Positions 1-12,739 of a stretch of 14,443 nucleotides of DNA are shown in pieces. Source of the stretch: Dehalococcoidales bacterium (GTDB lineage Bacteria > Chloroflexota > Dehalococcoidia > Dehalococcoidales > Fen-1064). The translations under genes and the position numbers were made by a program. The stretch's first letter is position 1. Each line of letters opens with the position of its first letter. The notes under the pieces were generated by a model. That model was given only the letters and a program-made list of their open reading frames with translations, was not told where the DNA came from and did not search any database. Location: positions 1-14,443 of the forward strand of contig DAOUVG010000015.1 in NCBI GenBank assembly GCA_030667735.1, given 5' to 3'.

Positions 1-308
1 CTGTCAAGAGCAATGGCTAACTCAAAAGGAAAGGTGGTACCGAATTGGACATCTGAGTCGATTGGTATTGGCCTTTCGTATCACGGTTATGAACCAGTTG
101 TCCCTCGATAGTAATCCTCGCAGTCCTTACAGGCCGGTTCCACACGTGTCATAGTGTATGCAGACGGTATCCCGATAGGAGTTTGAGCACACAGGGATAA
201 AGAGACGAGTACAGGTTCTTGTCTAACTTGACAGAATGTGGTACAATCTCTGGTCAACTGGGAAGCTTCAATTAGACGCAGGAGGATAGGAATAACAAGG
301 CTAGCAAA

Positions 309-349
309 GGTAGACTACCGTTACCACAGCCACTGAGTAAACGGCTACC
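309..349 (+). other. Bulged stem-loop in gene-free leader
   Basis: GGTAG (309-313) pairs with CTACC (345-349), and CCGTT (318-322) pairs with AACGG (340-344). This gives a 10-bp stem interrupted on the 5' side only by the four bases ACTA (314-317), with a 17-nt loop. An alternative short hairpin, GGTAG with CTACC at 315-319, competes with it. It could be a structured RNA leader or a DNA dyad. No tested RNA family is matched convincingly. Confidence 0.3.
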
Positions 350-416
350 CGACGGCTCACCGAACGGGAAGGATGGGGCAGGATAGGTCTAAGAGATTCC
401 CGGTAAGAACTTTTCC

Positions 417-447
417 AATATTTACTCAATATTTATCTTATTTACTC
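417..447 (+). promoter_or_regulatory. Direct-repeat operator candidate upstream of the response regulator
   Basis: The nonamer TATTTACTC occurs at 419-427 and again at 439-447, exactly 20 bp apart. A degenerate copy, TATTTATCT, lies between them at 430-438. Head-to-tail repeats of roughly 10-11 bp are how OmpR/PhoB-type winged-helix regulators commonly bind DNA. This block ends 20 bp upstream of a TATAAT box and about 130 bp upstream of an OmpR-family gene, so autoregulation is a reasonable inference. The repeats are seen directly; the binding is not shown. Confidence 0.4.
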
Positions 448-467
448 GTATCTTAACATTCGTCATG

Positions 468-473
468 TATAAT
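468..473 (+). promoter_or_regulatory. -10 box candidate (TATAAT) for the response regulator
   Basis: There is a perfect TATAAT at 468-473, but no good -35 hexamer at 16-18 bp spacing: the positions around 444-451 read roughly CTCGTA. A poor -35 with operator-like repeats just upstream is the pattern expected of an activator-dependent promoter. The leader to the start codon at 580 would be about 100 nt. Confidence 0.4.
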
Positions 474-579
474 GATGCAGGAGTATGTTTCGGATATGCT
501 GGTGAACCGGAGTGGCGGACAGGGGTAGAGCCGCCATCCGGCCGCACATCCTTGGCAGAACCGTTCCAGGCAGTGGGGA

Positions 580-1287
580 ATGAAGGTACTAATTATTGAA
601 GATAGCGCCGATACCATCCACCCGATATCCGCGGTATTCAAACTCCGCTGGCCAACGTGTACTACTATTTCAACGACTAAGGGAGTAAAAGGCGTAGCGC
701 TGGCTGAAAACGAATCCCCTGATATCATTATTCTTGAGGTCGACCTCCCCGATATAGATGGATTTGATGTCCTCCGCCAGATACGTATGTTCTCTGAAGT
801 CCCGATAGTCTTCCTCACCGAGAGAGGAGACGAGAAGGATATCATCAGGGGTCTGGAAGGAGGGGCTGATGACTACATAGTCAAGCCCTTCAGCGCTCCG
901 GAGCTTCTAGCCAGGGCAGGGGCAGCACTGCGGCGCAGCGGCCTCCGGGATGGAATCGAGGAAAGTACGCCTCCTTTGGTCAGTGGAGACCTGACGATAG
1001 ACTTCCAATCAAAGGAAGTGACGCTTAAGGGTGAACCGGTCCACCTTACCACCACCGAATATCAGATACTCTACTACCTGATGCGTAATCCGGGGAAGTG
1101 GGTTAATCATGGCTCCCTGGAACAATGGATATGGGGGGGACAGGGGACTGTTGACTCCTCCGTTATCAGGAGGTATATCTACCAGCTACGCCGCAAACTC
1201 AACGGCACCCCTCCGCGGTTGATCGTGAACGTACCTGGCAAGGGATACAAGTTCAACCCTGCCATCAGCAGGCTGTCTACCGTTTAG
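580..1287 (+). CDS. OmpR/PhoB-family response regulator with Glu in the phosphoacceptor position
   Basis: This is a 235-residue two-domain transcription regulator. Residues 1-120 form the receiver domain: acidic pair E7/D8, conserved T80, conserved K102 followed by P103, and a linker ending in LRR. Residues about 133-228 form a winged-helix DNA-binding domain (Trans_reg_C), with the recognition helix near 193-207 and the terminal hairpin VPGKGYKF. The residue normally phosphorylated, the Asp in the LLD-x-x-LP segment, is Glu53 here (IILEVDLPDIDG, codon GAG at 736-738), so normal phosphorylation is doubtful and the protein may be locked in an active-like state. The start at MKVLIIEDS matches the usual family N-terminus, although the ribosome-binding site is weak. 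No histidine kinase lies in the window, so it is an orphan here. Downstream genes converge on it. Confidence 0.93.
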   Translation: MKVLIIEDSADTIHPISAVFKLRWPTCTTISTTKGVKGVALAENESPDIIILEVDLPDIDGFDVLRQIRMFSEVPIVFLTERGDEKDIIRGLEGGADDYIVKPFSAPELLARAGAALRRSGLRDGIEESTPPLVSGDLTIDFQSKEVTLKGEPVHLTTTEYQILYYLMRNPGKWVNHGSLEQWIWGGQGTVDSSVIRRYIYQLRRKLNGTPPRLIVNVPGKGYKFNPAISRLSTV

Positions 1288-1464
1288 AGACCCCGGACAG
1301 ATTCCTCTCTCGCTATGTCCACATTCCCTCAGCTTTGTTATCTGACAGTATGCCGTCAGACCGGATGGCGTTATTCGCATGGCCGCCTTCGAGAGATATC
1401 CGCCATGCCGTGCATCGTCCTTGGGGAATGGAGCCATGCCGGCAGGGCGCAAGGGTCGTCTTTG
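1288..1464. other. Convergent intergenic region with dyads
   Basis: This lies between the 3' ends of the response regulator (+) and the EpsI-like gene (-). It contains two inverted repeats: TCTGAC (1341-1346) with GTCAGA (1355-1360), loop 8; and GCATGGC (1377-1383) with GCCATGC (1402-1408), loop 18. Neither is followed on either strand by a clear T-run, so they are weak terminator candidates at best. GCCATGCC recurs at 1433-1440. Confidence 0.3.
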
Positions 1465-2436
1465 TCAGTCTGTTTTTTCCTGGCTGTCGTCTTCTCCGGT
1501 CACCGGTGCCGTCACGTGTGCACGATGTCGGGTCATTATGGCAGCGCACAAAGCGTAGACTATCATCGCCAGCGGAATGGTGAAAGCAAGCACGATGACC
1601 AGGTAGCCACCGGCACCGGACTCCGCCAGAGACGTGATGGCCATTTGCGGTTCTTCCACGGGCTCGAACATGAGGGGAACAACCTCACCCATGAAATCCT
1701 TGGCAGTCGCAAGCGTAGCGTCATACCCTCCTGATAGAGGGATTAGTGCTGATACCCGGATCAGGTGGATTTGGTCCGTCGTAATCGCTACGTCCTTTAT
1801 AACCGCATACAGGACCAGTATACGCTCAATGACCTCGCCATCTTCATTCTGTTTACAGGCAGTGAACCTCTTGGCTGGTATCCGGCCCTGGTACGGCTCG
1901 AATTCAAGCTCCTGACGCACCCTCGCCGGCAGAGTGGTGGGTATTTCATCAGGCTCCTGCTCCCCGGTTTGCTCAACCCAATCCTGGTCTTTGATAACCA
2001 CATGGTCATCCTGGACACTATCAACCAGGTATCCCATGGCCAAGTAGCAAAGATGGGGCATGTGAAAGCTTGATAGTTCCGCACTCTGTATTATCAGGAG
2101 AATGATTGGCTGAGAGAACACCGGCCTGCTATATGACCGCAGGAGTAGTACATCGGCTTCGAGAATCTCTTTCACCTCTGAAGTATCATAGTCCTGCCCG
2201 TACCAATCCGAGATAGCTCTCGGGAAATTATTGAGCTCCTGCTGACTGGATAGGTTCGTCCTGGTCTTGACATATCTGGCATATTGGCTCTCTCCAGACA
2301 ATTGAGTGTCGATTGCCACGTAGCTGCCCACCGTTTCCACCTGGGAGCGTTGGCAAAGACCTATGACTGCCACCGTGAGCAGGAACAGACCTGCAACCAG
2401 GAACAACTGCCAGTATTTCTTCATAAATGAGTTCAT
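1465..2436 (-). CDS. EpsI-like (DUF3485) exosortase-associated protein, membrane-anchored
   Basis: This is a 323-residue protein with an N-terminal membrane segment (about residues 8-27), a large extracytoplasmic domain and a C-terminal membrane segment (about 277-301) ending in a short charged tail. The domain resembles EpsI/DUF3485 proteins that accompany exosortases. It has the QDY-x-x-SEVKEIL stretch (81-92), LLLRSYSRP (97-105), then HMPHLC (125-130) in the place of the family HSPxxC motif, and a late RVSALIPLSGGYDAT segment (228-241). The start ATG has AGGT about 6 bases upstream. It begins 28 bp after the exosortase gene ends, so the two are probably cotranscribed. The family role (a partner in exosortase-linked sorting or exopolysaccharide export) is inferred from association; no enzymatic activity is established from sequence. 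A lipobox is not present: VIGLC lacks the small residue before Cys. Confidence 0.8.
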   Translation of the reverse strand: MNSFMKKYWQLFLVAGLFLLTVAVIGLCQRSQVETVGSYVAIDTQLSGESQYARYVKTRTNLSSQQELNNFPRAISDWYGQDYDTSEVKEILEADVLLLRSYSRPVFSQPIILLIIQSAELSSFHMPHLCYLAMGYLVDSVQDDHVVIKDQDWVEQTGEQEPDEIPTTLPARVRQELEFEPYQGRIPAKRFTACKQNEDGEVIERILVLYAVIKDVAITTDQIHLIRVSALIPLSGGYDATLATAKDFMGEVVPLMFEPVEEPQMAITSLAESGAGGYLVIVLAFTIPLAMIVYALCAAIMTRHRAHVTAPVTGEDDSQEKTD

Positions 2437-2464
2437 CAGCTACCTGCGATTATAACTAAAGATG

Positions 2465-3358
2465 TCAAGTGCTATCTGCTTCTCTGAGACTGCATCCTGA
2501 GACGCGACTAAGAAGGAACAGAGACAGGATGGCAACCAGGAAGACAATTGGACTGGAGAGACCGTGGAAGAACCCGAGAGCAGCCTCGCTCCCCCAGAAA
2601 TGGGCTACGAAAAGAAGGAGAGCAATTCTCAGCACGTTAGCCGCAACGGCTATGGGGAAGGCCAGGAGAAAAAGTACCGTCCTTTTGAGGTAGTGTCCTT
2701 TCAAGAGATAGGCGAACAGCGCAGTCAGTGCCAGAAGTGAGATGAGGGTATTCATCCCGCTGCAAGTGGCACCAATGATGAAGGTTGAACCGGCAAGTTG
2801 GATTTCGGTACCGGTATTGGTGGCCGGCAGACCGAATGCTCGCACCATTGACGCCGACCCGCTTGTTGATGCCAACTGCAGCGGCACTGTAACAGAATTG
2901 AGAACAGGTAGGGGTATCATGAATATCAGGAAGCAGATGGGGAAGAGCATGGAACGGGTAGCTCGTGCTCCCCTGAAACAGAGGAGCAGGCCGGCAGTCA
3001 CCGGGATAACAGAAGATGCCCAGAGCCAATTAAACTTGTAGATGAATCCCACGGCATACATCACCAACCCGATAGTAAGGACGACAGCCCCCACACCTGC
3101 GGGCTTTGCTTTTGCCAGTTCCTTTCGTCGGGACCAGACCAGCAGAGCAGAAACAGGCAGTACGAGGAAACCGTGGCTGTAATAGGGGTTAGCTATCCAG
3201 ACCTGAACAAGGTAAACAAGTACCGGAGCGTAGAGGGCAGTACACATACCTCCGATTAGCACCGTTGTGACAAGTTGCCCGCTTTTCACCTTATTGCACC
3301 AGTCCCCGTGCGGCCTTGATAGCCTGATAATCCCCGGGACCAGATTCGTTCTCGACAC
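2465..3358 (-). CDS. Exosortase (transpeptidase-like membrane protease)
   Basis: This is a 297-residue multi-spanning membrane protein of the exosortase/archaeosortase family. These enzymes cut a C-terminal sorting tail (PEP-CTERM type) from exported proteins and are thought to transfer them to a surface anchor. Visible hallmarks are YSHG (60-63) in the first loop, the catalytic Cys in GATCSGMN (Cys199), Arg in NVLRIALLL (Arg244) and His in FFHGLSSP (His265), which make up the Cys/Arg/His triad. About eight hydrophobic segments are apparent. The first codon is GTG; the spacing to an upstream AAAGGG is very short, so the true start may lie further in (for example GTG codon 24). The next gene, EpsI-like, follows after 28 bp. 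I see no PEP-CTERM-type substrate in the window. Confidence 0.9.
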   Translation of the reverse strand: MSRTNLVPGIIRLSRPHGDWCNKVKSGQLVTTVLIGGMCTALYAPVLVYLVQVWIANPYYSHGFLVLPVSALLVWSRRKELAKAKPAGVGAVVLTIGLVMYAVGFIYKFNWLWASSVIPVTAGLLLCFRGARATRSMLFPICFLIFMIPLPVLNSVTVPLQLASTSGSASMVRAFGLPATNTGTEIQLAGSTFIIGATCSGMNTLISLLALTALFAYLLKGHYLKRTVLFLLAFPIAVAANVLRIALLLFVAHFWGSEAALGFFHGLSSPIVFLVAILSLFLLSRVSGCSLREADST

Positions 3359-3761
3359 CCTTTACATAAAGACTTATTATCCATTACCAGACTGTTCTAT
3401 AAGCCCCCTGTCTTCTACCCTTATACTTGATATGAAAAAGGGCAACTCCAGGAACACCCGGGATAGCACAAAGCCATTGGGGAGTCAGCGCTGTTATCCT
3501 CCTATCATGGAGGTAGCTGCTTGTCTTGCTTACTCTTCGTTACACTATACACTTTTTCCTTTGGCCAACACTATTTATGAGGCAACGATACCACTTTAGG
3601 TAACTTTAATTATGAGTCGATTCGCATATTTGACGACTGTAAGGCCTCTCTGCTAGAATTCAAGCGCTGTTTTGTCCCACAAGGGGTGACCGCCCGTAAC
3701 CAGGCGACAAACAGGTCGGTACTGTTCAGTCTGCTAAGTCGGAACATAAGAGGAGGTTATC
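3359..3761. other. Divergent intergenic region between exosortase and enoyl-CoA hydratase
   Basis: These 403 bp carry no supported gene. On the + strand there is a good promoter (3630-3659) and a leader dyad, TTTGTC (3671-3676) with GACAAA (3706-3711), whose 29-nt interior is GC-rich and could fold further. On the - strand only a weak promoter candidate for the exosortase is seen: CTTATA, 16 bp, GATAAT (3376-3381 on the + strand). The stretch 3361-3660 is more AT-rich than the flanking genes. Confidence 0.45.
3630..3659 (+). promoter_or_regulatory. Sigma70-type promoter for the enoyl-CoA hydratase
   Basis: TTGACG (3630-3635) and TAGAAT (3654-3659) are separated by 18 bp. Each hexamer matches the consensus at five of six positions. 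Transcription would start near 3666, giving a leader of about 95 nt that contains the TTTGTC/GACAAA dyad. Confidence 0.6.
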
Positions 3762-4526
3762 ATGTCTGCTGTTATTTATGAGAAGAAAGGTCACATCGCA
3801 ATTATCACCCTCAATCGTCCCGATGCTTTGAATGCCCTGAATGTTGATATACATCGTGAACTACATGAAACGATGGTCGATTTCCGGGACGACGACGACC
3901 TCTGGGTTGCCATCCTTACCGGTACCGGAGACAGGGCGTTCTCCGCCGGTGCGGATATCAAGGGTTTCCAGCCCGGTACCGGGGAAGTATCCAGGAGGAG
4001 TGATGAACCACCGGTGCGGGCGGACACGATATGGAAGCCTGTCATTGCCGCGATACACGGCTACTGCCTTGGCGGAGGCCTGGAACTGGCTCTGACATGT
4101 GATATCAGAATAGCCGCTGATAACGCCCAGTTAGGCCAGCCGGAGGTGAACATTGGCTTCATGGCTGGCGGCGGTGGTACCCAGAGACTGCCTCGCTTTA
4201 TTCCCCGCGCGGTTGCTGCCGAGATACTGCTTACAGGAAACCGCATTAATACTGAAGAGGCGCTGCGCTGGGGTCTGGTCAGCAGGGTTGTCCCGCGGGA
4301 CCAGCTGATGTCTACCGCCATGGAGATAGCTGAGACTATCTGCCAGCGGGGTCCTCTCGGCATCAGGGCAACCAAAGAGGCCATTATCCGGGGGTATGAT
4401 ATGACTCTACCGGATGGCCTGTACCTGGAGGCCGAGAAGGTTGCTTACGTCAGGACAACCGACGACTTCATGGAAGGGGCCAGGGCATTCGCCCAGAAGA
4501 GGACGCCCGACTACAAGGGTAAGTAA
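3762..4526 (+). CDS. Enoyl-CoA hydratase/isomerase (crotonase family)
   Basis: This is a 254-residue single-domain crotonase-fold enzyme of normal length. It is expected to add water across the double bond of a 2-enoyl-CoA in the cytoplasm. Both catalytic glutamates of classical hydratases are present: Glu108 in GGGLELALTCD and Glu128 in GQPEVNIG. The oxyanion-hole segments are also there: SAGADIKG (61-68) and HGYCLGGG (99-106). GFMAGGGGTQRLPR (132-145) has Ala where most hydratases have Pro. The ATG has AGGAGG about 6-7 bases upstream and a good promoter. The gene stands alone on the + strand and converges on the CoA-ligase genes, its stop being 19 bp from theirs. The substrate cannot be told from sequence; a related isomerase or hydrolase activity is possible, but the two Glu residues favour hydratase. 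Confidence 0.93.
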   Translation: MSAVIYEKKGHIAIITLNRPDALNALNVDIHRELHETMVDFRDDDDLWVAILTGTGDRAFSAGADIKGFQPGTGEVSRRSDEPPVRADTIWKPVIAAIHGYCLGGGLELALTCDIRIAADNAQLGQPEVNIGFMAGGGGTQRLPRFIPRAVAAEILLTGNRINTEEALRWGLVSRVVPRDQLMSTAMEIAETICQRGPLGIRATKEAIIRGYDMTLPDGLYLEAEKVAYVRTTDDFMEGARAFAQKRTPDYKGK

Positions 4527-4545
4527 CAGCAGCGAAACCAGCCCG

Positions 4546-5436
4546 CTAGAGAAGCCCGGCCAGTGTGGTAGCAATCTCCTGGGGCGTATCGACTACGTGT
4601 GCACCGGCTGCCTTCAGGGCCTTGACCTTGCTTTCCGCGGTGCCCCTGCCTCTTTCAATAATGGCACTGGCGTGGGAGAATCTCATGCCCGATGGCATCG
4701 TTCGTCCGGCTATGTAGGCCACCAGCGGTTTGCTGAATCCGCCTTCCTTGATGACTTCGGCAGCTTCCTCCTCGGCCACTGTACCGATTTCACCGAACAA
4801 GACTACCGCCCTGGTATTCTCGTCTTCTTCGAAGAGGGGTAGTACGTCGGCGAAGTTTGTGCCGATGACCGGTTCCGTACCGATGTGTATCGCCGTTGAT
4901 ATGCCGATACCAGTCCTGGTTATGCTCCAGACCACGGTGCCCGTTTGACCACCGCTGCGAGACATTACGCCAACATTCCCGGGAATGAAGATTTCGTTGG
5001 CGAAGTCGACGGAAGCACCCAGCCATCCCACGGCTGCCTTCTGCGGGGTGACCATGCCCATGCAGCCCGGCCCGAATAGACGGCATCCCTTACGCCGTGC
5101 CAGTGCAATCATCTCCAGGGCATCGTGTAAGGGCACTCGCTCCGCGGGAACAATAACCATCTTCAGTCCGGCCTCAATAGCCTCAAATACGGCGGGTTTG
5201 AGTTGCGGTGCCGGTACGAATATCACACTGGCATCTATCGGCCCCTGTTCCTCCACGGCTTCTTGAACAGTGTTGTAAACGGGAACACCGTTGATGCTGT
5301 TACCGCCACGACCGGGAGTGACACCGCACAGCAGCCTGGTACCATAGTCAATCATGTATTTCGCGCGGGCACTGCCTTCCCGTCCGGTTATGCCCTGCAC
5401 CAGTACCGTGGTATTTTCGTCAGCAAGTATTGCCAT
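4546..5436 (-). CDS. SucD-like CoA ligase alpha subunit (nucleotide-dependent acid-CoA ligase)
   Basis: This 296-residue protein is similar along its length to the alpha subunit of succinyl-CoA synthetase. That subunit binds CoA through an N-terminal Rossmann domain (QGITGREG, 14-21) and carries the phosphorylated histidine. His255 in FSHASAII matches the active-site His, Glu216 in GEIG matches the glutamate that contacts it, and RGRGTAESK (262-270) follows as in the family. Differences from the classical enzyme are [10 protein letters not shown] (122-131) instead of [14 protein letters not shown] (159-166) instead of SRSGTLTYE, and VPAERVP (96-102) in place of the TEGIP loop. It starts immediately after the stop of the Fe-S gene (TAAATG), with GGAGG about 10 bases upstream, so translation is likely coupled. 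It probably pairs with the SucC-like subunit encoded two genes upstream. Succinate should not be assumed as the substrate. Confidence 0.88.
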
Positions 5437-5748
5437 TTACGTCCGGCCTCCGTGCCGGGAAAGCCCTATCTTCTTGCGGTATTCGTCCAGACCGAACATG
5501 TCCAGAGTGATTTGCAGGCCCTTGTTGCCGTTGTCCTGGCAGTAGCGTTCGCAGGCAAGGTCCTCGATACAGCGGCGGCCTGCCTCTTCAGTGGATGGTA
5601 TCAGAACAGGCAGACCATCCTCGACCTTGAAGAGATTTCCCCCGAACCGGGCGCACGCTTCGACGCAGGCGTAGCTCTGGCAGCCACGGCACTTCTCCAG
5701 GTCAATCGTGACCTTGCCCGTGCGAAACGGGAATTCAAGGGTCGTCAT
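5437..5748 (-). CDS. Small ferredoxin-like iron-sulfur protein between CoA-ligase subunit genes
   Basis: This 103-residue protein has seven cysteines in two ferredoxin-like groups. Group 1 is C20-x2-C23-x4-C28-x3-C32, with the loop before the third Cys two residues longer than usual. Group 2 is C60-x2-D63-x2-C66-x3-C70, with Asp where the second Cys is expected. An Asp in this place is known from the 4Fe-4S ferredoxin of Pyrococcus furiosus. If the fold is the two-cluster type, Cys32 and Cys70 would cross over to complete the clusters. No Pro follows either group. The sequence starts MTTLEFPFRTGKVTIDLEKC and ends in a basic tail. AGGAGG lies upstream of the ATG. The gene is 15 bp after the beta-subunit gene, and its stop abuts the alpha-subunit start, so it is firmly inside the ligase unit. 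It may be an accessory subunit or an electron carrier; the role is unknown. Confidence 0.8.
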   Translation of the reverse strand: MTTLEFPFRTGKVTIDLEKCRGCQSYACVEACARFGGNLFKVEDGLPVLIPSTEEAGRRCIEDLACERYCQDNGNKGLQITLDMFGLDEYRKKIGLSRHGGRT

Positions 5749-5763
5749 CCTGCCTGCCTCCTC

Positions 5764-7014
5764 TCAGGTACGCCGGTACTCCTCGGAGAGCTCTTTCACA
5801 CGTTCTGCTATGAAATCAACGTTGTAAACGTAATCGCGGCCGTATATCTCGATTCTTGCCGGAAGTCCGCTCAGACCGTTCCTGAGTATCTCCAGTGATT
5901 CCTTCTCCTTGTTACCTGCGATGAGGATAACCACCGGGAAGCCGGGTCTGCTGATTAGCTCTTCCTTCAGTGCCCGGACCAGAGCATGTGCATGGTGCCA
6001 TTGCTCCTGGTTGGCTACCATCGCACCCATCAGTACAAAGGCGTCAATATCCGGTTGGGAAAAGACAAGCTTGACGACGCGGTATACCTTGGAGGCGGTC
6101 GGGTTGCCGCTGCTTTCCGCGTAGTTGGCCAGTTTGAGCCCGTGGCGCATCAGGGCATCGGCTCCCAGCATAGCACCACCGCCGCCAAGTCCATGAAAAC
6201 CGACATATCCTTCGCCGGGTCCAAAGCCCTCGGCAAGCTGGACAAAGTAACCCGTCCCGCGGTAGTCTTCCGCCTCTACACGCCAGGCAATTCGCTCAAG
6301 CTCGGTGGGTTCCCTGCTGATATCACGGGGAAAGTCTATCTCCAGGTCAGGGTGCTTGAACACCGAGGCCTCGTCAATAACGATACGGCAGTCAGCCGGG
6401 AGGATTTTTCCGTTGATAGTGAGTACCAGCGGGTTCATCTCCGCACTGCGTGCACTATACCCCCGAAAGACCCGGTACAGGCCATGTACTATTTCACTCA
6501 GGGATGATATCAGTGGCAGGGGAATGTTGAATCGGGAGACCAGGCTACGTACTTCTTCTATGCTAAGGCCGTCCAGTACATCGATGCTCAGACTGACCAC
6601 GCTGTCCGGGTCTTCGGCAGCTATCTCCTCGATGTCAACTCCCCCACGAGTGCTGAACATCAACACCGGGCTCCTGACCTTGTAGGAATCATTGACAATG
6701 ATGCCGGCGTACATCTCTCGCTCGACGTCCAGCCGTTCCTCGACCAGTACCTTGTTTACCCTGGCACCTTTGATGTCTTTACCGAGGAGTCCGGCAGCGG
6801 CTTTTTTGGCCTCATCGGGCGTATCAGCAAACTTGATACCGCCGGCCTTAAAGCGGCCGGTTACACCTATCTGGGCTTTAACTGCTACCGGTTTGCCAAT
6901 TTCTGTAGCTATCCGGAGTGCCTCCTCTGGCGTGGAGGCGACATCACCGAGTGGGACCGGTATTCCCATCTCTTTCAGGAGTCGTTTCCCCTGGTATTCA
7001 AGAAGCTTCGGCAT
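5764..7014 (-). CDS. SucC-like CoA ligase beta subunit (ATP-grasp) with altered acid-binding loops
   Basis: This is a 416-residue protein. Residues 1-235 are an ATP-grasp domain: LLEYQGKRLL (4-13), VAVKAQ-x6-RFKAGGIK (43-61), and AEMNPLVL (191-198), supplying Glu192 and Asn194 for the phosphohistidine and Mg sites, with Asp208 following. Residues about 265-405 are the CoA-ligase domain. In E. coli SucC the residues noted for substrate binding are Asn264 and a GGI loop near 321-323. Here the equivalents read HGLGGG (from His274) and MGAMVANQ (329-336), and the family DVGGGAT helix start is ESSGNPT (300-306). Phosphoryl transfer is therefore probably conserved while the acid substrate differs. 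The ribosome-binding site is weak. It is the first ligase gene after the FKBP gene (42 bp gap, occupied by a strong hairpin). A non-catalytic paralogue is possible. Confidence 0.87.
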   Translation of the reverse strand: MPKLLEYQGKRLLKEMGIPVPLGDVASTPEEALRIATEIGKPVAVKAQIGVTGRFKAGGIKFADTPDEAKKAAAGLLGKDIKGARVNKVLVEERLDVEREMYAGIIVNDSYKVRSPVLMFSTRGGVDIEEIAAEDPDSVVSLSIDVLDGLSIEEVRSLVSRFNIPLPLISSLSEIVHGLYRVFRGYSARSAEMNPLVLTINGKILPADCRIVIDEASVFKHPDLEIDFPRDISREPTELERIAWRVEAEDYRGTGYFVQLAEGFGPGEGYVGFHGLGGGGAMLGADALMRHGLKLANYAESSGNPTASKVYRVVKLVFSQPDIDAFVLMGAMVANQEQWHHAHALVRALKEELISRPGFPVVILIAGNKEKESLEILRNGLSGLPARIEIYGRDYVYNVDFIAERVKELSEEYRRT

Positions 7015-7035
7015 TGCCTGTCTCTTACTTTCTCT

Positions 7036-7057
7036 GACCGCTGGCCAACCAGCGGTC
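7036..7057 (-). terminator. Perfect 9-bp hairpin between FKBP and CoA-ligase genes
   Basis: GACCGCTGG (7036-7044) and CCAGCGGTC (7049-7057) form a perfect 9-bp inverted repeat around a 4-base loop, starting at the stop codon of the FKBP gene. In the direction of transcription it is followed by CAGAGAAAG, not by a T-run. It may therefore be a partial or Rho-assisted terminator, an mRNA-stability hairpin separating FKBP from the ligase genes, or a protein-binding dyad. Confidence 0.5.
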
Positions 7058-7560
7058 TACCTTCTTATCTTGACCAGTTTTATCTCAAAGCTGAGGTCTT
7101 TTCCGGCGAGGAAGTGGTTGGCGTCCAGCGTAACGGTGGTCTCGGTTACTTCCGTTACGATAGCCGAACCCTGCTGACCTCCCTCGTAAGTCACCCCGAT
7201 TTGCAGTCCAACTGTTGGTTCGACATCTTCAGGCAACTCGTCCCGGCCTACCTCCATGAGAAGCTCTTCATCGTGTGGCCCGTAAGCCTCTGCTGACGGG
7301 ATTGTTATAGTCTTGGTCTCGCCTACCTTCATCCCGTATACGGCATCCTCAAAACCGGGTATCATCTGGCCGGCTCCGATGGTGAATTGCAGAGGGTCTT
7401 CGCCTTCCGATGAATCGAACTCCGAACCATCTTCCAATGTTCCGGTGTAGTGTACATCGACAATGTCACCATCTTTGGCGTATTGTGTACTGCAACCACT
7501 CATCAGTACTCCTGTAACTATAAGAAGAATGGGTATAATCAGGAATCTTTTCTTAACCAT
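7057..7560 (-). CDS. Lipoprotein FKBP-type peptidyl-prolyl isomerase (SlyD-like)
   Basis: This is a 167-residue peptidyl-prolyl cis-trans isomerase, expected to speed proline isomerisation in proteins outside the membrane. Residues 1-22 are a signal peptide (MVKKR, then a hydrophobic run) ending in MSGC, so Cys23 is the likely lipid-modified residue. Residues about 29-165 are an FKBP domain of the SlyD type. It shows VHYTGTLEDGSEFDSS (36-51), GAGQMIPGFEDAVYGMKVGE (62-81), PSAEAYG (88-94), an insert-in-flap region (about 95-145) and NHFLAGKDLSFEIKL (148-162). The metal-binding His/Cys-rich tail of E. coli SlyD is absent. A GGGGGTGG ribosome-binding site lies about 5 bases before the ATG. It is 42 bp upstream of the CoA-ligase beta gene, but separated from it by a strong hairpin, so a functional link is uncertain. 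Confidence 0.93.
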   Translation of the reverse strand: MVKKRFLIIPILLIVTGVLMSGCSTQYAKDGDIVDVHYTGTLEDGSEFDSSEGEDPLQFTIGAGQMIPGFEDAVYGMKVGETKTITIPSAEAYGPHDEELLMEVGRDELPEDVEPTVGLQIGVTYEGGQQGSAIVTEVTETTVTLDANHFLAGKDLSFEIKLVKIRR

Positions 7561-7595
7561 GTGCCACCCCCAAATTCAATTGTCTGAGTACCTGT

Positions 7596-7610
7596 CCGGA
7601 GTTCGTCCGG
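7596..7610 (-). other. Short hairpin in FKBP leader
   Basis: CCGGA (7596-7600) and TCCGG (7606-7610) form a 5-bp inverted repeat with a 5-base loop, about 40 bp upstream of the FKBP start codon. The 150-bp gap between the reductase and FKBP genes also has GCAC (7666-7669) with GTGC (7675-7678). Neither has a T-run. I see no strong promoter for FKBP in this gap. Confidence 0.25.
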
Positions 7611-7710
7611 TAACTATATGTCTGGTTAATATCACATGAATCAGCAGGATATCGGGACACAGCCAGCACCGACCGTGCCCCGGATGATACCGTATCGCAG
7701 TGCATCCCTG

Positions 7711-9660
7711 CTAAATCTTCCGGGCGACTTCGTTGGCCGTCCAGATTGCATCCTTAATCGTTCTTACCTGGGCGCAATCGCCAATCTTATAGACTTCGGG
7801 CAGCTTCCCTTCCAGTTCGCTGAAGAGGGAATCGTTGGACTTCCTCTCTCCGAACCGTCTGGATAGAATGATGGTATCATAGGGAATGACCCGCGTTCTG
7901 TCGGTGTTGTCCCCCACCTGTAGCGTTATCTTACCGTCAGCAATATCTTCCACGGTCACGTTGTAGAGTACTTCGGGATTGCTCATCCTCTGGCCTTCAG
8001 GTGTTCCTCTGACGACATTGAGGTCTGTAAGCTTCTTAACAAGGTACAGGCGGCGCACTCCGGCGATATCACTGCCCAGTGAACCTTCTCCGGACCGGCC
8101 CAGGAGGACAACGTCCTTACCTTCCTCGGCAAGGGCGATGGCCAGTTCGGCACCAAAGAATCCCCAGACGATGACCTTCTGTCCGATGGAGCGGCGCTGT
8201 CTCAGGGCCTCGCCATGAGTCAACACGCCGAATTTGCCTTCAGCTACATCCGGTATCGTGGCGGTTGAACCCGCAGCCAGTATGACGACATCCGGTTTCG
8301 TCCCGATTATTTCGTCGGCAGTGGCGTCTTTGCAGACCCTGACGTCCACTCCGAGCTTGCCCATCTGGGTGGACCGGTACCGCGTGACATTGCCGAACTC
8401 ACCGGGCAGGGGGTTGAGGCCGAGGTTGGCGACCATACCGCCAAGCTCGCTGCTTTTCTCGAACAGTGTTACCTGGTGACCCCTGGTAGCGGCGATTCTG
8501 GCTGCTTCCATGCCGGCAACGCCACCACCCAGCACGAGTACCTTCTTGACCTTCTCCGCCGGGGTCAGCGGAATCGGGTCGTCCTGGATATCATAGTTGA
8601 TTGAGCACGGCCTGCCGCAACTAGCCTGGCAGCCGATGCACATGCGGATATCCTCCGGCCTGCCTTCGAAGTACTTGTTGGCGGTATCTGTGTCGCATGT
8701 AACCTGGCGGCCCATATAGATGATGTCCGCTTTACCTTCCTGGAGGAACCTCTCGGCCATGTCCATGTCCAGGATAGCCCCCACACCGATAACGGGAACA
8801 TCGACCACTTCTTTTATGGCGGCGGCATTTTCGATGAAGCATCCCCTCTCATAGTAGACCGGGATGGTAATACCGTGGGGGGAGTGAACTATCGAACCCT
8901 GCGAGACGTCCAGACAGTCTGCACCGGCCTCTACCAGTGCTGGTGCGATGTACTTCTGGGCATCTGATACTGTGATTCCTTCATCGCCCAGCAACTCGTC
9001 GGCATCCATTCGAGCAAGTAGCGGGTAGTCATCGCCGACAGCTTCCCGCATCGCGCGAAGAATGTCGGTGGGGAGGCGGAGGCGGTTCTCCCAGCTCCCG
9101 CCGTACTGGTCGGTCCGGTGGTTGTAGAACGGAGAGATGAAGGAGCAGCACAGAGTTGCCCCACCGTGAGCACAGTGCAACTCGACGCAGTCGATACCTG
9201 TCTCCTTGAGGAGCTTCGCGGCGGCGGCAAACTCCTTAACCTGTTGCTCGAGGTATTCGACTGTTACCTCGTTGACGGGAAGGATGCTGCCGGCCATCAG
9301 GTCGAACTGGCCCAGCTTGGCATGAGTTGCGCTGGGATATGGAGAGGGTGACGGGCCCTGTCCGCTCATCGGGCCACCCTGCACAAGCTGGATGCCAATC
9401 TTGCAGTCATACTGGTGCATCCGTTCGGCGAGGCGGGCAAATCCCTCTCTGGCTGTGGGCATCAGTACCATCAGCGGGACGAAGGAACCGGTCATGATGA
9501 ACCCCAATCCCCCCTTAGCCCGTTCCTCGAACCAACGGATTGTGAGGTCATTCACGCTCCAGTCTTCATTTCGAGGCATGTTCAGGAAAGGGGCAAAACC
9601 TATCCGGTTCTTGAGCTTCATCCCTTTAATTTCAAGCGGTTCCTGAATTTTCCTGCTCAT
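7711..9660 (-). CDS. Old-yellow-enzyme/2,4-dienoyl-CoA reductase-type Fe-S flavoprotein
   Basis: This 649-residue oxidoreductase has the layout of 2,4-dienoyl-CoA reductase and related enoate or bile-acid reductases. An FMN-binding TIM barrel occupies about 1-335, followed by a 4Fe-4S motif and an FAD/NAD(P)-binding module (about 372-649). The barrel starts EPLEIKGMKLKNRIGFAP and contains HCAHGG (162-167), RTDQYGGSWENR (182-193) and the phosphate-binding segment ending YMGRQ (315-319). The cluster motif is C341-x2-C344-x3-C348-x3-C352; the gap before the fourth Cys is much shorter than the roughly 11 residues of E. coli FadH. VLGGGVAGMEAA (376-387) binds FAD. The second nucleotide site reads VWGFFGAE (498-505), lacking the first Gly of GxGxxG. 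The Tyr of the usual HGYL active-site loop is replaced (HGGATLCC). AAGGAG lies 7 bases before the ATG. The probable substrate is an enoate or enoyl-CoA; the exact one is unknown. Confidence 0.9.
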   Translation of the reverse strand: MSRKIQEPLEIKGMKLKNRIGFAPFLNMPRNEDWSVNDLTIRWFEERAKGGLGFIMTGSFVPLMVLMPTAREGFARLAERMHQYDCKIGIQLVQGGPMSGQGPSPSPYPSATHAKLGQFDLMAGSILPVNEVTVEYLEQQVKEFAAAAKLLKETGIDCVELHCAHGGATLCCSFISPFYNHRTDQYGGSWENRLRLPTDILRAMREAVGDDYPLLARMDADELLGDEGITVSDAQKYIAPALVEAGADCLDVSQGSIVHSPHGITIPVYYERGCFIENAAAIKEVVDVPVIGVGAILDMDMAERFLQEGKADIIYMGRQVTCDTDTANKYFEGRPEDIRMCIGCQASCGRPCSINYDIQDDPIPLTPAEKVKKVLVLGGGVAGMEAARIAATRGHQVTLFEKSSELGGMVANLGLNPLPGEFGNVTRYRSTQMGKLGVDVRVCKDATADEIIGTKPDVVILAAGSTATIPDVAEGKFGVLTHGEALRQRRSIGQKVIVWGFFGAELAIALAEEGKDVVLLGRSGEGSLGSDIAGVRRLYLVKKLTDLNVVRGTPEGQRMSNPEVLYNVTVEDIADGKITLQVGDNTDRTRVIPYDTIILSRRFGERKSNDSLFSELEGKLPEVYKIGDCAQVRTIKDAIWTANEVARKI

Positions 9661-9701
9661 ATTGCTACTCCTTGTTTATTATTGCCAGTTTACCTTGCGC
9701 T

Positions 9702-9749
9702 TATATTTCTCCTGGCGAGTCCTTTGCGGCCTATATTACTCCTGAGGAG
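9702..9749 (-). promoter_or_regulatory. Imperfect direct repeats 30 bp apart upstream of the reductase gene
   Basis: On the + strand, 9702-9719 (TATATTTCTCCTGGCGAG) and 9732-9749 (TATATTACTCCTGAGGAG) match at 15 of 18 positions and are spaced by exactly 30 bp, close to three helical turns. A further TATATTCC begins at 9755. The block is 42-89 bp upstream of the reductase start codon on the minus strand, where an operator would be expected. I could not identify a clear -35/-10 pair here. On the minus strand each copy also contains AGGAG. Confidence 0.3.
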
Positions 9750-9847
9750 CCAGGTATATTCCATGACATATCAAGCGACCGCACAGACTGCATTTTGCCA
9801 TCTTTGCTATATCGCCGTCAACAACGCCACGCGGCACTGGTGGGAAA

Positions 9848-9858
9848 GCCGGTTTCGG
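9848..9858 (-). terminator. Weak terminator candidate after the Lon-like gene
   Basis: Just after the Lon-like stop codon, in the minus direction, GCCG and CGGC enclose a 4-base AAAC loop and are followed by TTTCCC. The stem is short and the T-run has only three bases. The remaining gap (9661-9864) holds the direct repeats upstream of the reductase gene but no supported gene. Confidence 0.25.
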
Positions 9859-9864
9859 CCGGAC

Positions 9865-12318
9865 TTAAGATTCGGCTTCCTTGTCGTTCTTGTCCGTATC
9901 CGTCTTTTCTTCACCTTTGGAAAAGTCCCGCAGCTTCTCCGCCAGACCTGCCAGGCGCTTTTGCACCCGGTCGTTTATGGAATCAGACTCGAAGGTGCCG
10001 TCTTCCAGGAACTGGCCTGCCTTCATTCCGGTAAGCACTTCAATCCCATCGTCTATCGTGCTCACCGGGTAGATGTGGAACTTGCCTTCCCGGATTGCCT
10101 CGACAACGTCATCCTTGAGCATGAGGTTGTGGGTGTTGCTTGCCGGCATGAGGACCCCCTGCGACCCATTGAGGCCCCTGACACGGCATACCTCGAAAAA
10201 CCCCTCTACCTTCTCGTTTATTCCACCTATCGCCTGCACCTCTCCCCTCTGGTTGACCGAACCGGTCACGGCAATACTCTGTTTGATGGGCACCCCGGAC
10301 AGTCGGGAGAGCAGTGAGTACAGTTCCGTGCTTGAAGCACTATCGCCATCCACTCCTCCATAGCTCTGCTCGAAGACAAGACGGGCGGAAAGGGACAGAG
10401 GGATATCACGGGCATACTTCTCGTGAATATACCCGCTGAGTATCAGGACCCCTTTGGTATGGAGGGGGCCACCAAGCTTGGATTCTCTCTCGATGTCAAC
10501 CAGTCCTTCTCGTCCTACGCCGACACTGGCGGTAATACGGCTCGGCCTCCCGAAGGAGAAATCACCCAGGTCAGATACCGCCAGACCGTTCACCTGGCCT
10601 ATTGCCTCGCCTTCTACGTCGATGATAATCATCCCGGCCTCTATCATCTCGTTGATGCGCTCCTGGATGAGGTTTGACCGATAGATCCGATGCTCTATAG
10701 CTCTATTAACATGGTCGGCTTCGATGGCGGAGGCCCCGTCTTCACCGGCATAGAAGTTGGCCTCGCGGACAATATCGGCGATACTGGAAAACATCGTTGT
10801 CAGCTTGTCATTATTGTCCGCCAACCTTGAACTGTGCTCTATTATCCTGGCCAGGGCGCCGCTTCTCAGGTGTTTCATGTTTTCCTCATTACAGAGGCGG
10901 CACAGGACGGCGGCGTAGTCCTTAAGGTTGGCCTCGTTCTTGTCCATCTGACTATCAAAATCCGCCTTTACCTTAAACAGCTCCCTGAACTGGAGGTCCG
11001 ACTGATGTAAAAGGTAGTAGAACATCGGCTCTCCGATAATGACAACTTTGACATCAAGTGGAATAGGTTCCGGCTGGATAGTCTTGGTTGACATGAAACC
11101 AAGCTTCTCGCCGATATCCTCGATGATAAGCTTGTTCTCGCGGAGGGTTCTCTTCAGTCCATCCCAGGACTGATAATTGGTCAACAGGTCTTCGACCCTT
11201 ATCACAAGGTACCCGCCATTAGCCCGGTGCAGTGAGCCGCTTCTTATCATTGTAAAGTCTGTGTACAGGGCACCGAACTGCGCCTCCTTTTCAATACGGC
11301 CGAAGAGATTGCTGAACGTGGGGTTAATATCGACAACTACCGGGGCTCCTTCCAGCTCCGAATTGTCAACAAGCACATTGACCTCATATACCTGCAGAGC
11401 CTGCTTCCGGGCTTGTTCATGCATCGCAGCAGCCATGGGGTCGGCTCCCTCGGGTTTTTCATCCGCCCGGAACTGCCCGAAGTGCTCAACGATGTTTTTC
11501 TTGACTTCATCGAGGTAGTGTACTACCTGGGTGAGTTCGGCATACTTGTTCCTGAGCTCTTCGAAGAGATGGCTGACGGCGTAGACAGCTACCTCATGGT
11601 CTGTGTCTTCGAGTTGTTTCTGAGCGTCATTCTCCTCGCTTTGCAGTTCCACGAGTGTCTCTTTCAATTCCGCAGTGAGCTCTTCCCGTGCCTTGTTTAG
11701 TTCTTCTTTTTTCTCAGCGCTCAGGTTCTGGTAGTCTTCCTCACTCATTTGCTGGCCGTCTATGGCCGGTGTCAGAACCAGACCAACCTGGGTGGTCTTC
11801 AGGAGCAATCCTCTCTCTCTGGCCTTCTCACTGACGACGGTGAATACCGTCCCCCGTTTCCGGTTCAGTTCATCAGCTATCTCTGAGCGCCGTTCATCGT
11901 ATTCCTTACTACTGAACGCCTGCACGATGCTGCGGCGGACCTTGTCTAACAGGTCCCGCATGTCTTTCTGCAGGACCAGCCCGGTCCCGGCAGGTACTTC
12001 CAGAGCCTTGGGGCAGTATGAGTCCCGGAAGTTGTACACGTAGCACCAATCGGAGGGGGCTGACTTCTGGGATGCCAGTGTCTCCAGAAATGACCGCATC
12101 ACCGTCATCTTGCCGGTTCCGGCCGGTCCGGCGACATAGATATTGAATCCGGTTTTCTGGATACTGAGACCGAATTTGAGAGCACTGAGTGCCCTGTCCT
12201 GGCCGATAATGGTGTCGATAGGCTTGAGGTCAGCGGTTGAATCGCACTCGAACAGGGCAGGGTTACATTTAGCCCTCACCTGTTCTGCGGTCAGTTCCTT
12301 TGGTATACCCGCAGGCAT
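9865..12318 (-). CDS. Lon-like AAA+ ATP-dependent serine protease (AAA_32/LonB-type)
   Basis: This is an 817-residue ATP-dependent protease of the COG1067 group. Residues about 30-75 begin the AAA+ module with Walker A GPAGTGK (64-70). A long charged, helix-rich insertion (about 130-320) separates it from HRANGGYLVIRVEDLL (364-379), the usual Walker B region of this family, and EDIGEKLGF (400-408). The C-terminal protease domain (about 565-765) has the Ser-Lys dyad: Ser660 in GGVDGDSASS and Lys703 in GGINEKVEGF. The last 40 residues are charged and probably disordered. There is no classical Lon substrate-binding N-terminal domain and no membrane segment, so it should be cytoplasmic. AGGAGGT lies 6 bases before the ATG, and an extended -10 promoter about 70 bp upstream. 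It is expected to degrade damaged or regulatory proteins; specific targets are unknown. The gene appears monocistronic. Confidence 0.93.
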   Translation of the reverse strand: MPAGIPKELTAEQVRAKCNPALFECDSTADLKPIDTIIGQDRALSALKFGLSIQKTGFNIYVAGPAGTGKMTVMRSFLETLASQKSAPSDWCYVYNFRDSYCPKALEVPAGTGLVLQKDMRDLLDKVRRSIVQAFSSKEYDERRSEIADELNRKRGTVFTVVSEKARERGLLLKTTQVGLVLTPAIDGQQMSEEDYQNLSAEKKEELNKAREELTAELKETLVELQSEENDAQKQLEDTDHEVAVYAVSHLFEELRNKYAELTQVVHYLDEVKKNIVEHFGQFRADEKPEGADPMAAAMHEQARKQALQVYEVNVLVDNSELEGAPVVVDINPTFSNLFGRIEKEAQFGALYTDFTMIRSGSLHRANGGYLVIRVEDLLTNYQSWDGLKRTLRENKLIIEDIGEKLGFMSTKTIQPEPIPLDVKVVIIGEPMFYYLLHQSDLQFRELFKVKADFDSQMDKNEANLKDYAAVLCRLCNEENMKHLRSGALARIIEHSSRLADNNDKLTTMFSSIADIVREANFYAGEDGASAIEADHVNRAIEHRIYRSNLIQERINEMIEAGMIIIDVEGEAIGQVNGLAVSDLGDFSFGRPSRITASVGVGREGLVDIERESKLGGPLHTKGVLILSGYIHEKYARDIPLSLSARLVFEQSYGGVDGDSASSTELYSLLSRLSGVPIKQSIAVTGSVNQRGEVQAIGGINEKVEGFFEVCRVRGLNGSQGVLMPASNTHNLMLKDDVVEAIREGKFHIYPVSTIDDGIEVLTGMKAGQFLEDGTFESDSINDRVQKRLAGLAEKLRDFSKGEEKTDTDKNDKEAES

Positions 12319-12354
12319 CGGCTACCTCCTAATATTCGGATTTGATGGGCAGCT

Positions 12355-12368
12355 CCCTGACATCAGGG
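12355..12368 (-). promoter_or_regulatory. Inverted repeat in the Lon-like leader
   Basis: CCCTGA (12355-12360) and TCAGGG (12363-12368) are perfect inverted copies two bases apart, equivalent to a 5-bp stem with a 4-base loop in RNA. It lies between the predicted transcription start (about 12379) and the ribosome-binding site. It may be an operator or a leader hairpin. It does not match the CIRCE or HAIR heat-shock elements. Confidence 0.3.
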
Positions 12369-12385
12369 GGTTGGCATGTATCGTT

Positions 12386-12394
12386 ATCATAGCA
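12386..12394 (-). promoter_or_regulatory. Extended -10 promoter candidate for the Lon-like gene
   Basis: On the minus strand this reads TGCTATGAT, which is TGn followed by a -10 hexamer with one mismatch to TATAAT. No good -35 is present at 17 bp, which extended -10 promoters can do without. The predicted start near 12379 gives a leader of about 60 nt. Confidence 0.4.
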
Positions 12395-12739
12395 AATAAT
12401 GTGCACAATTGGTATAGTGCGGGATTGGTTATTACACCCTCGTCCAGACAGCAGGGTAAGGTGTCGTGGTTACTGCCTGACAATCCACCTTCCCGGCAGG
12501 GAGAGTCAGCTTTCCTCTTGTGTGGTAACCAGCATCGGCTATGCCGGAGTGTCATTTATTTAGCGGATGCCGCGCACAGGGTTTGAAATCACGGCCGACG
12601 TGTAGTACATTATGGTCAATTATATCTGTCGTGGTGAGTAACGGGTCCATTTCTGTATTGCCGTCAAGACAGATTCACCGGTATGCGTAGGGGGTGCCGG
12701 TCATTGTCCCGTAACGATTGTCTGGAAGGAGAGAATGCA

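Follow-up and report, generated by a model that had tools for sequence, protein, structure and literature searches.

Gene organization of the locus

The window analyzed here is a stretch of 14,443 nucleotides from a Dehalococcoidales bacterium (GTDB lineage Bacteria, Chloroflexota, Dehalococcoidia, Dehalococcoidales, Fen-1064; GenBank assembly GCA_030667735.1, contig DAOUVG010000015.1, positions 1 to 14,443 of the forward strand), and the subject of this analysis is a trio of genes on its reverse strand in which a small ferredoxin-like iron-sulfur (Fe-S) protein is encoded between the beta and alpha subunits of a putative acid-coenzyme A (CoA) ligase. The initial annotation, made from the letters alone, had read the order as SucC-like beta, Fe-S protein, and SucD-like alpha, separated by 15 and 0 bp, and the coordinates confirm this:

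5764..7014, reverse strand: beta subunit, ATP-grasp acid-CoA ligase (SucC/citryl-CoA-synthetase-like), 416 amino acids; open reading frame, domain and structure matches
5749..5763, reverse strand: 15-nucleotide spacer GAGGAGGCAGGCAGG with GAGGAGG, ribosome-binding-site-like; read from the sequence
5437..5748, reverse strand: ferredoxin-like Fe-S protein, proposed third subunit, 103 amino acids, motifs CxxCx4CxxxC and CxxDxxCxxxC; open reading frame, motifs, locus comparison
4546..5436, reverse strand: alpha subunit with CoA-binding and phospho-His domains (SucD-like), 296 amino acids, motif RFSHASAI; open reading frame, domains

The beta gene ends with TGA, and the stop codon of the Fe-S gene abuts the start codon of alpha (TAAATG, gap 0 bp), the likely ribosome-binding site of alpha (GGAGG, 5451-5447) sitting within the Fe-S gene. 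The ribosome-binding-site-like motifs and the gaps of 15 and 0 bp suggest that translation of the trio is coupled. We propose that the three genes encode a three-part ADP/ATP acid-CoA ligase that would act on a beta-hydroxy acid and would contain the Fe-S protein as a structural or redox-gating subunit, and we give this joint proposal a probability of roughly 0.7.

Conservation of the gene trio

Genome searches that started from the Fe-S protein or from beta gave a table of 47 loci, at 44 of which, from 37 genomes, an Fe-S part is present; 32 of the 44 were reached through a strong match to an Fe-S profile and 12 through beta. The remaining three are L134, where the contig ends inside beta, L135, and the ordinary sucCD of the host itself (L056). 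Beta and alpha lie beside the Fe-S part at 44 of 44 loci, and the ligase is present at all 32 loci that were reached from the Fe-S side, which places the homologs of the small protein with this ligase rather than mostly away from it. Some of the 44 loci are near relatives (the window, L003, and L027 belong to one genus), and together they span Chloroflexota, Thermodesulfobacteriota, Archaeoglobus, and another archaeal genome. The Fe-S part is a separate gene between beta and alpha at 34 loci and is fused to beta at 10, with alpha following at 44 of 44 on the same strand, which is the one that the table covered. Of the 34 unfused loci, 30 have an estimated gap of at most 18 bp between beta and the Fe-S gene, and the other four have gaps of 176, 178, 224, and 2458 bp. 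In two Archaeoglobus metagenome-assembled genomes (MAGs) and one Syntrophobacterales MAG the three genes are unfused, with a lyase gene next in line, and each of two Archaeoglobus paralogs has its own Fe-S gene beside it. In G240, which is of the same phylum as the window, beta and the Fe-S domain form one protein and alpha is fused to a citrate-synthase-type domain.

The Fe-S profile gave strong matches in 8 of the 151 genomes of the window's order (its own included), with ten more genomes showing weak matches only; 18 copies were found in 16 of 247 genomes of the phylum of G437, and five copies in 3 of 196 genomes of the phylum of G435. The ten weak matches (E 6e-7 to 9e-4) have no beta, alpha, or lyase within flanks of about 1.5 kb, and a longer stretch around that of G369 (L033) holds no ligase either; we take them for other ferredoxins. 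The reciprocal search used a beta profile, with which the betas of the clade score above 500 bits and ordinary SucC proteins no higher than 284 bits. An Fe-S partner accompanies 36 of 37 main-clade betas, the remaining one being cut by a contig end. Within the window's order a clade beta occurs in 9 of 151 genomes, with the Fe-S gene present in eight and the locus truncated by the end of the contig in the ninth. For the phylum of G437, each of the 18 Fe-S copies has a beta at the corresponding place (18/18), 17 of these betas scoring above 550 bits and one being partial, and in the class of G240 a clade beta is found in 10 of 120 genomes as nine fusions and one beta with a separate Fe-S gene (10/10). 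Three more divergent betas from that class, scoring 338-343 bits, are likewise separated from alpha by the Fe-S gene (3/3).

As a control, ordinary SucC loci were inspected in the same manner, and the Fe-S gene was found at 0 of 28 distinct loci within flanks of about 1.5 kb (29 loci were run, L044 and L056 being one locus counted twice, and the alpha gene was visible at 26 of these 29). The order of the trio is more than chance, with 44 loci in distant groups against 0 of 28 ordinary SucC loci. Several observations weigh against a uniformly tight unit. Beta and the Fe-S gene are separated by 176-224 bp at L079, L087, and L089 and by 2.4 kb at L139, and more than 290 bp lie before alpha at L079, L087, L143, L144, L146, and L147. 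The beta of L135 (329 bits) gave, with a sensitive search, a match between beta and alpha that holds only a broken reading of the first Cys motif, and this locus was counted neither with nor without an Fe-S gene. Furthermore, the control, with flanks of about 1.5 kb, fails to see the Fe-S gene that L099 (G915) has 2.4 kb off (L139), and it therefore excludes nearby Fe-S genes only.

Natural gene fusions provide a second line of evidence. A search of whole proteins of about 289-900 amino acids with words taken from the fused Fe-S domain alone returned 470 database proteins with the fused-type domain. Among the 120 that were listed, all have the full-Cys motifs, 114 have the length of the fusion (490-535 amino acids), and an ATP-grasp domain is recorded for 119. 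The beta tree unites its nine fusions on a single branch (95/97). Across 41 loci the distance matrices of the three parts are correlated (beta-FeS r 0.852, FeS-alpha r 0.857, beta-alpha r 0.909; 0 of 2000 permutations as high), a result that is merely consistent with a unit because shared descent alone raises such values. The suggestion of the initial annotation that the Fe-S protein is a third subunit is strongly supported by the ligase linkage at 44 loci and the abundance of natural beta::Fe-S fusions. It could be argued instead that the small protein is an independent ferredoxin that serves other enzymes and is merely co-transcribed with the ligase, in keeping with its nearest general (weak) resemblance, which is to 4Fe-4S ferredoxins, and with the few large gaps. 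However, direct fusions to beta in many proteins, the linkage at 44 of 44 loci, the co-varying distances, and the absence from ordinary SucC loci (flanks of about 1.5 kb) all speak against such an arrangement, and we consider it very unlikely.

The beta and alpha subunits

The beta subunit matches the Pfam families ATP-grasp_2 (184.5 bits) and Citrate_bind (PF16114; 37.2 bits against a cut-off of 26.8), and alpha matches CoA_binding (78 bits) and Succ_CoA_lig (50.1 bits). K46, Q48, R54, E192, N194, and P195 of beta are invariant in 11 family members and in the host's own ordinary SucC, and the phospho-His motif is present in all 43 readable alphas of the 44 loci (L140 is cut). We take the ATP-grasp residues of beta and the phospho-His of alpha to be catalytic (E197beta is also named in a title), and because they are kept the trio should be an active nucleotide-dependent ligase.

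Could it then be an ordinary succinyl-CoA synthetase into which an unrelated gene has been inserted? The closest solved chains are indeed those of succinyl-CoA synthetases, 3ufx_B for beta (233 bits) and 2yv2_A for alpha (299 bits), and the catalytic residues of both subunits are common to the two enzymes. However, both subunits fall below the curated NCBIfam cut-offs for SucC (232.9 against 370 and 218.3 against 375.55) and SucD (314.9 against 353.2 and 309.5 against 336), and the host genome has a second, ordinary sucCD pair (L056) with adjacent genes and without an Fe-S gene, in contrast to the window, where the Fe-S gene lies in between. The arrangement is retained in bacteria and archaea, and the relatives of the window ligase have C-C lyases as neighbors, a further difference from SucCD. 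The separate sucCD pair, the locus table, and the SucC control (flanks of about 1.5 kb) contradict the insertion of an unrelated gene, and this explanation can practically be dismissed. Since the genome has a separate sucCD, the window ligase is not the succinyl-CoA synthetase of the tricarboxylic acid (TCA) cycle. It is also distant from the malate-CoA ligase beta model NF010647, against which the window beta scores 164.4 bits (cut-off 604).

The iron-sulfur protein

The sole Pfam match of the window Fe-S protein is to Fer4_2, at 20.9 bits and thus under the cut-off of 24.5, and no curated Fer4 family is matched above cut-off, the others being weaker than Fer4_2. Two Cys motifs, C20 C23 C28 C32 and C60 D63 C66 C70, are common to the window protein and all 35 listed homologs (36/36). 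They fit two clusters, with a spacing that is atypical of a 2[4Fe-4S] ferredoxin and with one Asp. Aspartate is known as a cluster ligand from the ferredoxin of Pyrococcus furiosus, and the Fe-S part is predicted to have two 4Fe-4S sites, in one of which Asp would replace Cys in the window protein.

The first motif, CxxCx4CxxxC, is found at 43 of the 44 loci, and the first two Cys positions of the second motif differ by clade. They are C and D in the window type and in L136-L138, C and C in the fusions, L030, and L139, G and C in most loci of the G437 sample and in L032, and D and C in L054, L055, L098, and L092. At least seven Cys are retained throughout the aligned loci. Such variation raises the possibility of an oxygen or iron sensor, in which the ligase would be switched off on loss of the cluster that has the Asp or the missing ligand. 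That exactly one position of the second cluster is not Cys in most unfused clades (CxxD, GxxC, DxxC) is in line with such a role, but all eight Cys are present in 120 of 120 listed fusions and in the unfused L030 and L139, and the labile site is therefore not universal. We regard a sensor function as doubtful.

Structural models were obtained for the window protein and for a natural fusion. The window Fe-S protein alone was modeled poorly, with a predicted local distance difference test (pLDDT) score of 62.2, and Foldseek returned weak matches for this model to archaeal RNA polymerase subunit D, oxalate oxidoreductase, and P. furiosus ferredoxin (1siz), all with E > 0.1, to which we give no weight. 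The natural fusion (64 homologs) was modeled by AlphaFold2 with a pLDDT of 91.3 and a predicted template modeling score of 0.82, the Fe-S core (residues 421-500) having a pLDDT of about 95-97 and the linker (411-420) of about 88. The model suggests that the Fe-S core docks on beta. Fold matches of the beta part were to succinyl-CoA synthetase, citryl-CoA synthetase, and ATP-citrate lyase, and the matches of the whole model, which cover mainly residues 1-406, include no Fe-S protein family. The poor model of the isolated protein counts against our proposal, as does L092 (4580-4906), where an Fe-S protein with an odd first motif, having a longer first spacing, lies between an otherwise normal beta and alpha.

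Neighboring genes and candidate substrate

At 36 of the 44 loci a C-C lyase is encoded with alpha, and it belongs to one of three unrelated classes, namely HpcH/HpaI at 27, a citryl-CoA-lyase-type gene or domain at 8 (fused to alpha in one case), and HMG-CoA lyase at one (L137). At the other eight loci no lyase was found with alpha (the window, L003, L027, L078, L136, L138, L140, and L143, with L140 cut by the contig). Curated cut-offs are exceeded by the L137 HMG-CoA lyase and by the L141 citryl-CoA lyase, the lyase of L006 is closest to the malyl-CoA/beta-methylmalyl-CoA lyase 5ugr, and that of L004 is closest to human CLYBL. As the three lyases are unrelated and share one kind of chemistry, a beta-hydroxy acid is the common denominator, and the CoA esters on which the complex acts are most likely those of beta-hydroxy acids of the malate, citramalate, or citrate type.

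In the G437 sample, 11 of 18 loci have a GlcD-like gene after the lyase (the L006 copy reaches 524.5, below the GlcD cut-off of 567.9), and the combination of lyase and GlcD-like gene is in keeping with a glycolate/glyoxylate route via malyl-CoA. A route of this kind has been proposed for Syntrophobotulus glycolicus (PMC8092247), although the genome paper of this organism is silent on it, the word malyl being absent (PMC3156405).

For the window itself the substrate class is on its weakest ground. With the lyase of L028 as query, no HpcH/HpaI lyase was matched in the window's genus (G000, G420/G438, and G367, all incomplete MAGs), a result that goes against our proposal; G420 and G438 seem to be one assembly, that of L003, giving three genomes in all. 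The window beta groups in the beta tree with L028-L031, whose lyases are of the L004 type. HMG-CoA-lyase-like genes are present in G000, G420, and G367 (L158-L161; L158 scores 185.5 against a cut-off of 246), and a connection between them and the ligase is a guess.

The initial annotation had instead envisaged a pathway with the nearby enoyl-CoA hydratase and Fe-S flavoprotein. Within the fetched stretches, homologs of the hydratase (E of 1e-10 or better) are found at 3 of the 44 loci (the window, L003, and L027) and those of the flavoprotein at 2 (the window and L003), all in the window's genus, where the L027 stretch starts inside the FKBP gene and leaves the flavoprotein position out of view. 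The hydratase gene, moreover, is tail-to-tail with alpha and outside the operon. We reject the hydratase/old yellow enzyme (OYE)-type flavoprotein pathway as a conserved unit; elsewhere a C-C lyase is the usual neighbor. The flavoenzyme gene itself (7711-9660, reverse strand), which resembles OYE and 2-enoate reductase, lies upstream of the ligase on its strand and is present in L003 too; its best models, mycofactocin OYE-2, BaiCD, and bilirubin reductase, are all under cut-off.

Some neighborhoods deserve separate description. In the class of G240 (L141 197-7788, L142, L144, and L145) a beta::Fe-S fusion, alpha, and citryl-CoA lyase lie near putative aconitase/LeuC-D-type genes, and putative electron-transfer flavoprotein genes are near the fusion set in L144 and L145; these neighbors were named by eye except for the L141 lyase and L144 6068-7267. 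The four clusters are possibly an unrecognized citrate-cleaving set. At L137 (4618-11068) an aconitase-family gene, PrpF, beta, the Fe-S gene, alpha, and HMG-CoA lyase stand in a row, an arrangement suggestive of a pathway for a tricarboxylic or branched hydroxy acid. A formyltransferase-like gene is near the lyase, often between it and the GlcD-like gene, at L079, L080, L082, L085, and L087-L090, having been Pfam-checked in L079 and recognized in the others by a similar N-terminus.

Proposed mechanism and role of the Fe-S subunit

Based on these comparisons we put forward a hypothetical mechanism in which the trio forms one ligase of the succinyl-CoA synthetase/citryl-CoA synthetase kind, composed of beta, alpha, and a dedicated ferredoxin-like subunit. 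Enzymes of this family form a phospho-His on alpha, activate a carboxylate, and transfer the acyl group to CoA. Judging from the conserved residues, ATP and beta would phosphorylate the His of alpha, the phosphoryl group would activate the carboxylate of the acid, and the acyl group would then be passed to CoA. The acid would most likely be of the citramalate, malate, or citrate type, and the lyase would split its CoA ester, yielding acetyl-CoA together with a 2-oxo acid or the like; a beta-hydroxy acid is proposed because a lyase cleaving such CoA esters is the usual neighbor of the ligase. The reactions might also run in reverse and make ATP.

The beta::Fe-S fusions show that the Fe-S part has its place at the C-terminus of beta, probably close to alpha. 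It could be that the subunit passes electrons between a partner, such as glycolate oxidase, an electron-transfer flavoprotein, or a fumarate-reductase-like flavoprotein, and the ligase or lyase, and thereby couples the activation of the acid to redox state or electron flow. Consistent with this are the two predicted clusters with at least seven Cys kept, the GlcD-like genes after the lyase in the G437 sample (11 of 18 loci), the electron-transfer flavoprotein of L144, which has its own Fer4 domain and adjoins the fusion, and the flavin adenine dinucleotide-binding flavoprotein genes (L028- or L054-like) near the ligase in L028, L054, L091, L098, and L139. However, the reactions of ligase and lyase are non-redox, the redox neighbors vary between clades, and the frequent Gly or Asp at a ligand position of the second cluster suits a structural or labile site at least equally. 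Electron transfer through the subunit is in our view unlikely.

A structural or redox-gating third subunit is the role that we favor, since neither ligase nor lyase needs electrons and since small Fe-S parts that aid a larger enzyme have precedents. The ferredoxin-like domain of archaeal RNA polymerase Rpo3 has clusters that promote assembly (PMC5300874), and the small subunit of 4-hydroxyphenylacetate decarboxylase, a 9.5-kDa protein with two clusters, matters for soluble expression and is reported to be otherwise of unknown function (PMC12358834). Both resemble the window Fe-S part as small two-cluster parts of larger enzymes, a resemblance that serves as precedent and does not imply homology. 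The Fe-S part would thus most likely hold the complex together and tie its activity to reduced conditions, rather than act as an electron carrier. A further step, which we offer as speculation and ourselves find doubtful, is that the trio represents a class of redox-controlled, ADP/ATP-linked acid-CoA ligases in bacteria and archaea, in which a redox-active Fe-S subunit would set the rate or direction of hydroxy-acid activation by the electron state of the cell and so form a physical link from substrate-level phosphorylation to electron carriers, for example glycolate oxidase or electron-transfer flavoproteins.

Comparison with known systems and significance

To our knowledge, succinyl-CoA synthetase, citryl-CoA synthetase, and ATP-citrate lyase use a nucleotide and CoA and have no metal cluster. 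The window ligase resembles the pair of citryl-CoA synthetase and lyase, and ATP-citrate lyase, in the citrate-binding match (PF16114) of its beta and in the citryl-CoA-lyase-type gene or alpha::lyase fusion of 8 of the 44 relatives; beside the window ligase there is no citryl-CoA lyase gene or domain, the rest of the genome not having been searched for one. A citryl-CoA synthetase/lyase set on separate genes has been reported for a planctomycete, with no Fe-S domain mentioned in the section consulted (PMC5459899). Malate-CoA ligase (malate thiokinase) with malyl-CoA lyase is likewise a two-subunit ligase, and 27 of the 44 relatives of the window ligase adjoin an HpcH/HpaI lyase, some with GlcD-like genes too, but the window ligase differs in having an Fe-S part and in the lack of an HpcH/HpaI lyase match in its genus. 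No description of an Fe-S subunit of a succinyl-CoA-synthetase-type ligase was found in the literature listings, abstracts, and passages searched, including passages of PMC5113046 and PMC9802188. The parts are of known kinds, and the three-part ligase is undescribed in the literature searched.

If our proposal is correct, acid activation in many uncultured anaerobes relies on an Fe-S protein, and there is a branch of ligases in bacteria and archaea that has its own Fe-S part and is tied to three unrelated C-C lyases. Where these betas have database names, they are mostly called succinyl-CoA synthetase beta subunit, acetate-CoA ligase, or ATP-grasp protein, and pathway reconstructions may consequently misassign these ligases.

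Other features of the window

One further feature lies between the FKBP lipoprotein gene and beta:

7036..7057, reverse strand: 9-bp perfect hairpin, -18.2 kcal/mol, z -3.8

The hairpin has no T-run behind it; it could set the ligase operon apart from the genes upstream. A PADLOC scan gave no match. At 1465-3358 (reverse strand) an exosortase gene (EpsH family) adjoins one for a DUF3485-like protein, in this Dehalococcoidales-type genome; XrtW and XrtA are the best models for the exosortase but fall below cut-off, and the general exosortase model is matched above cut-off.

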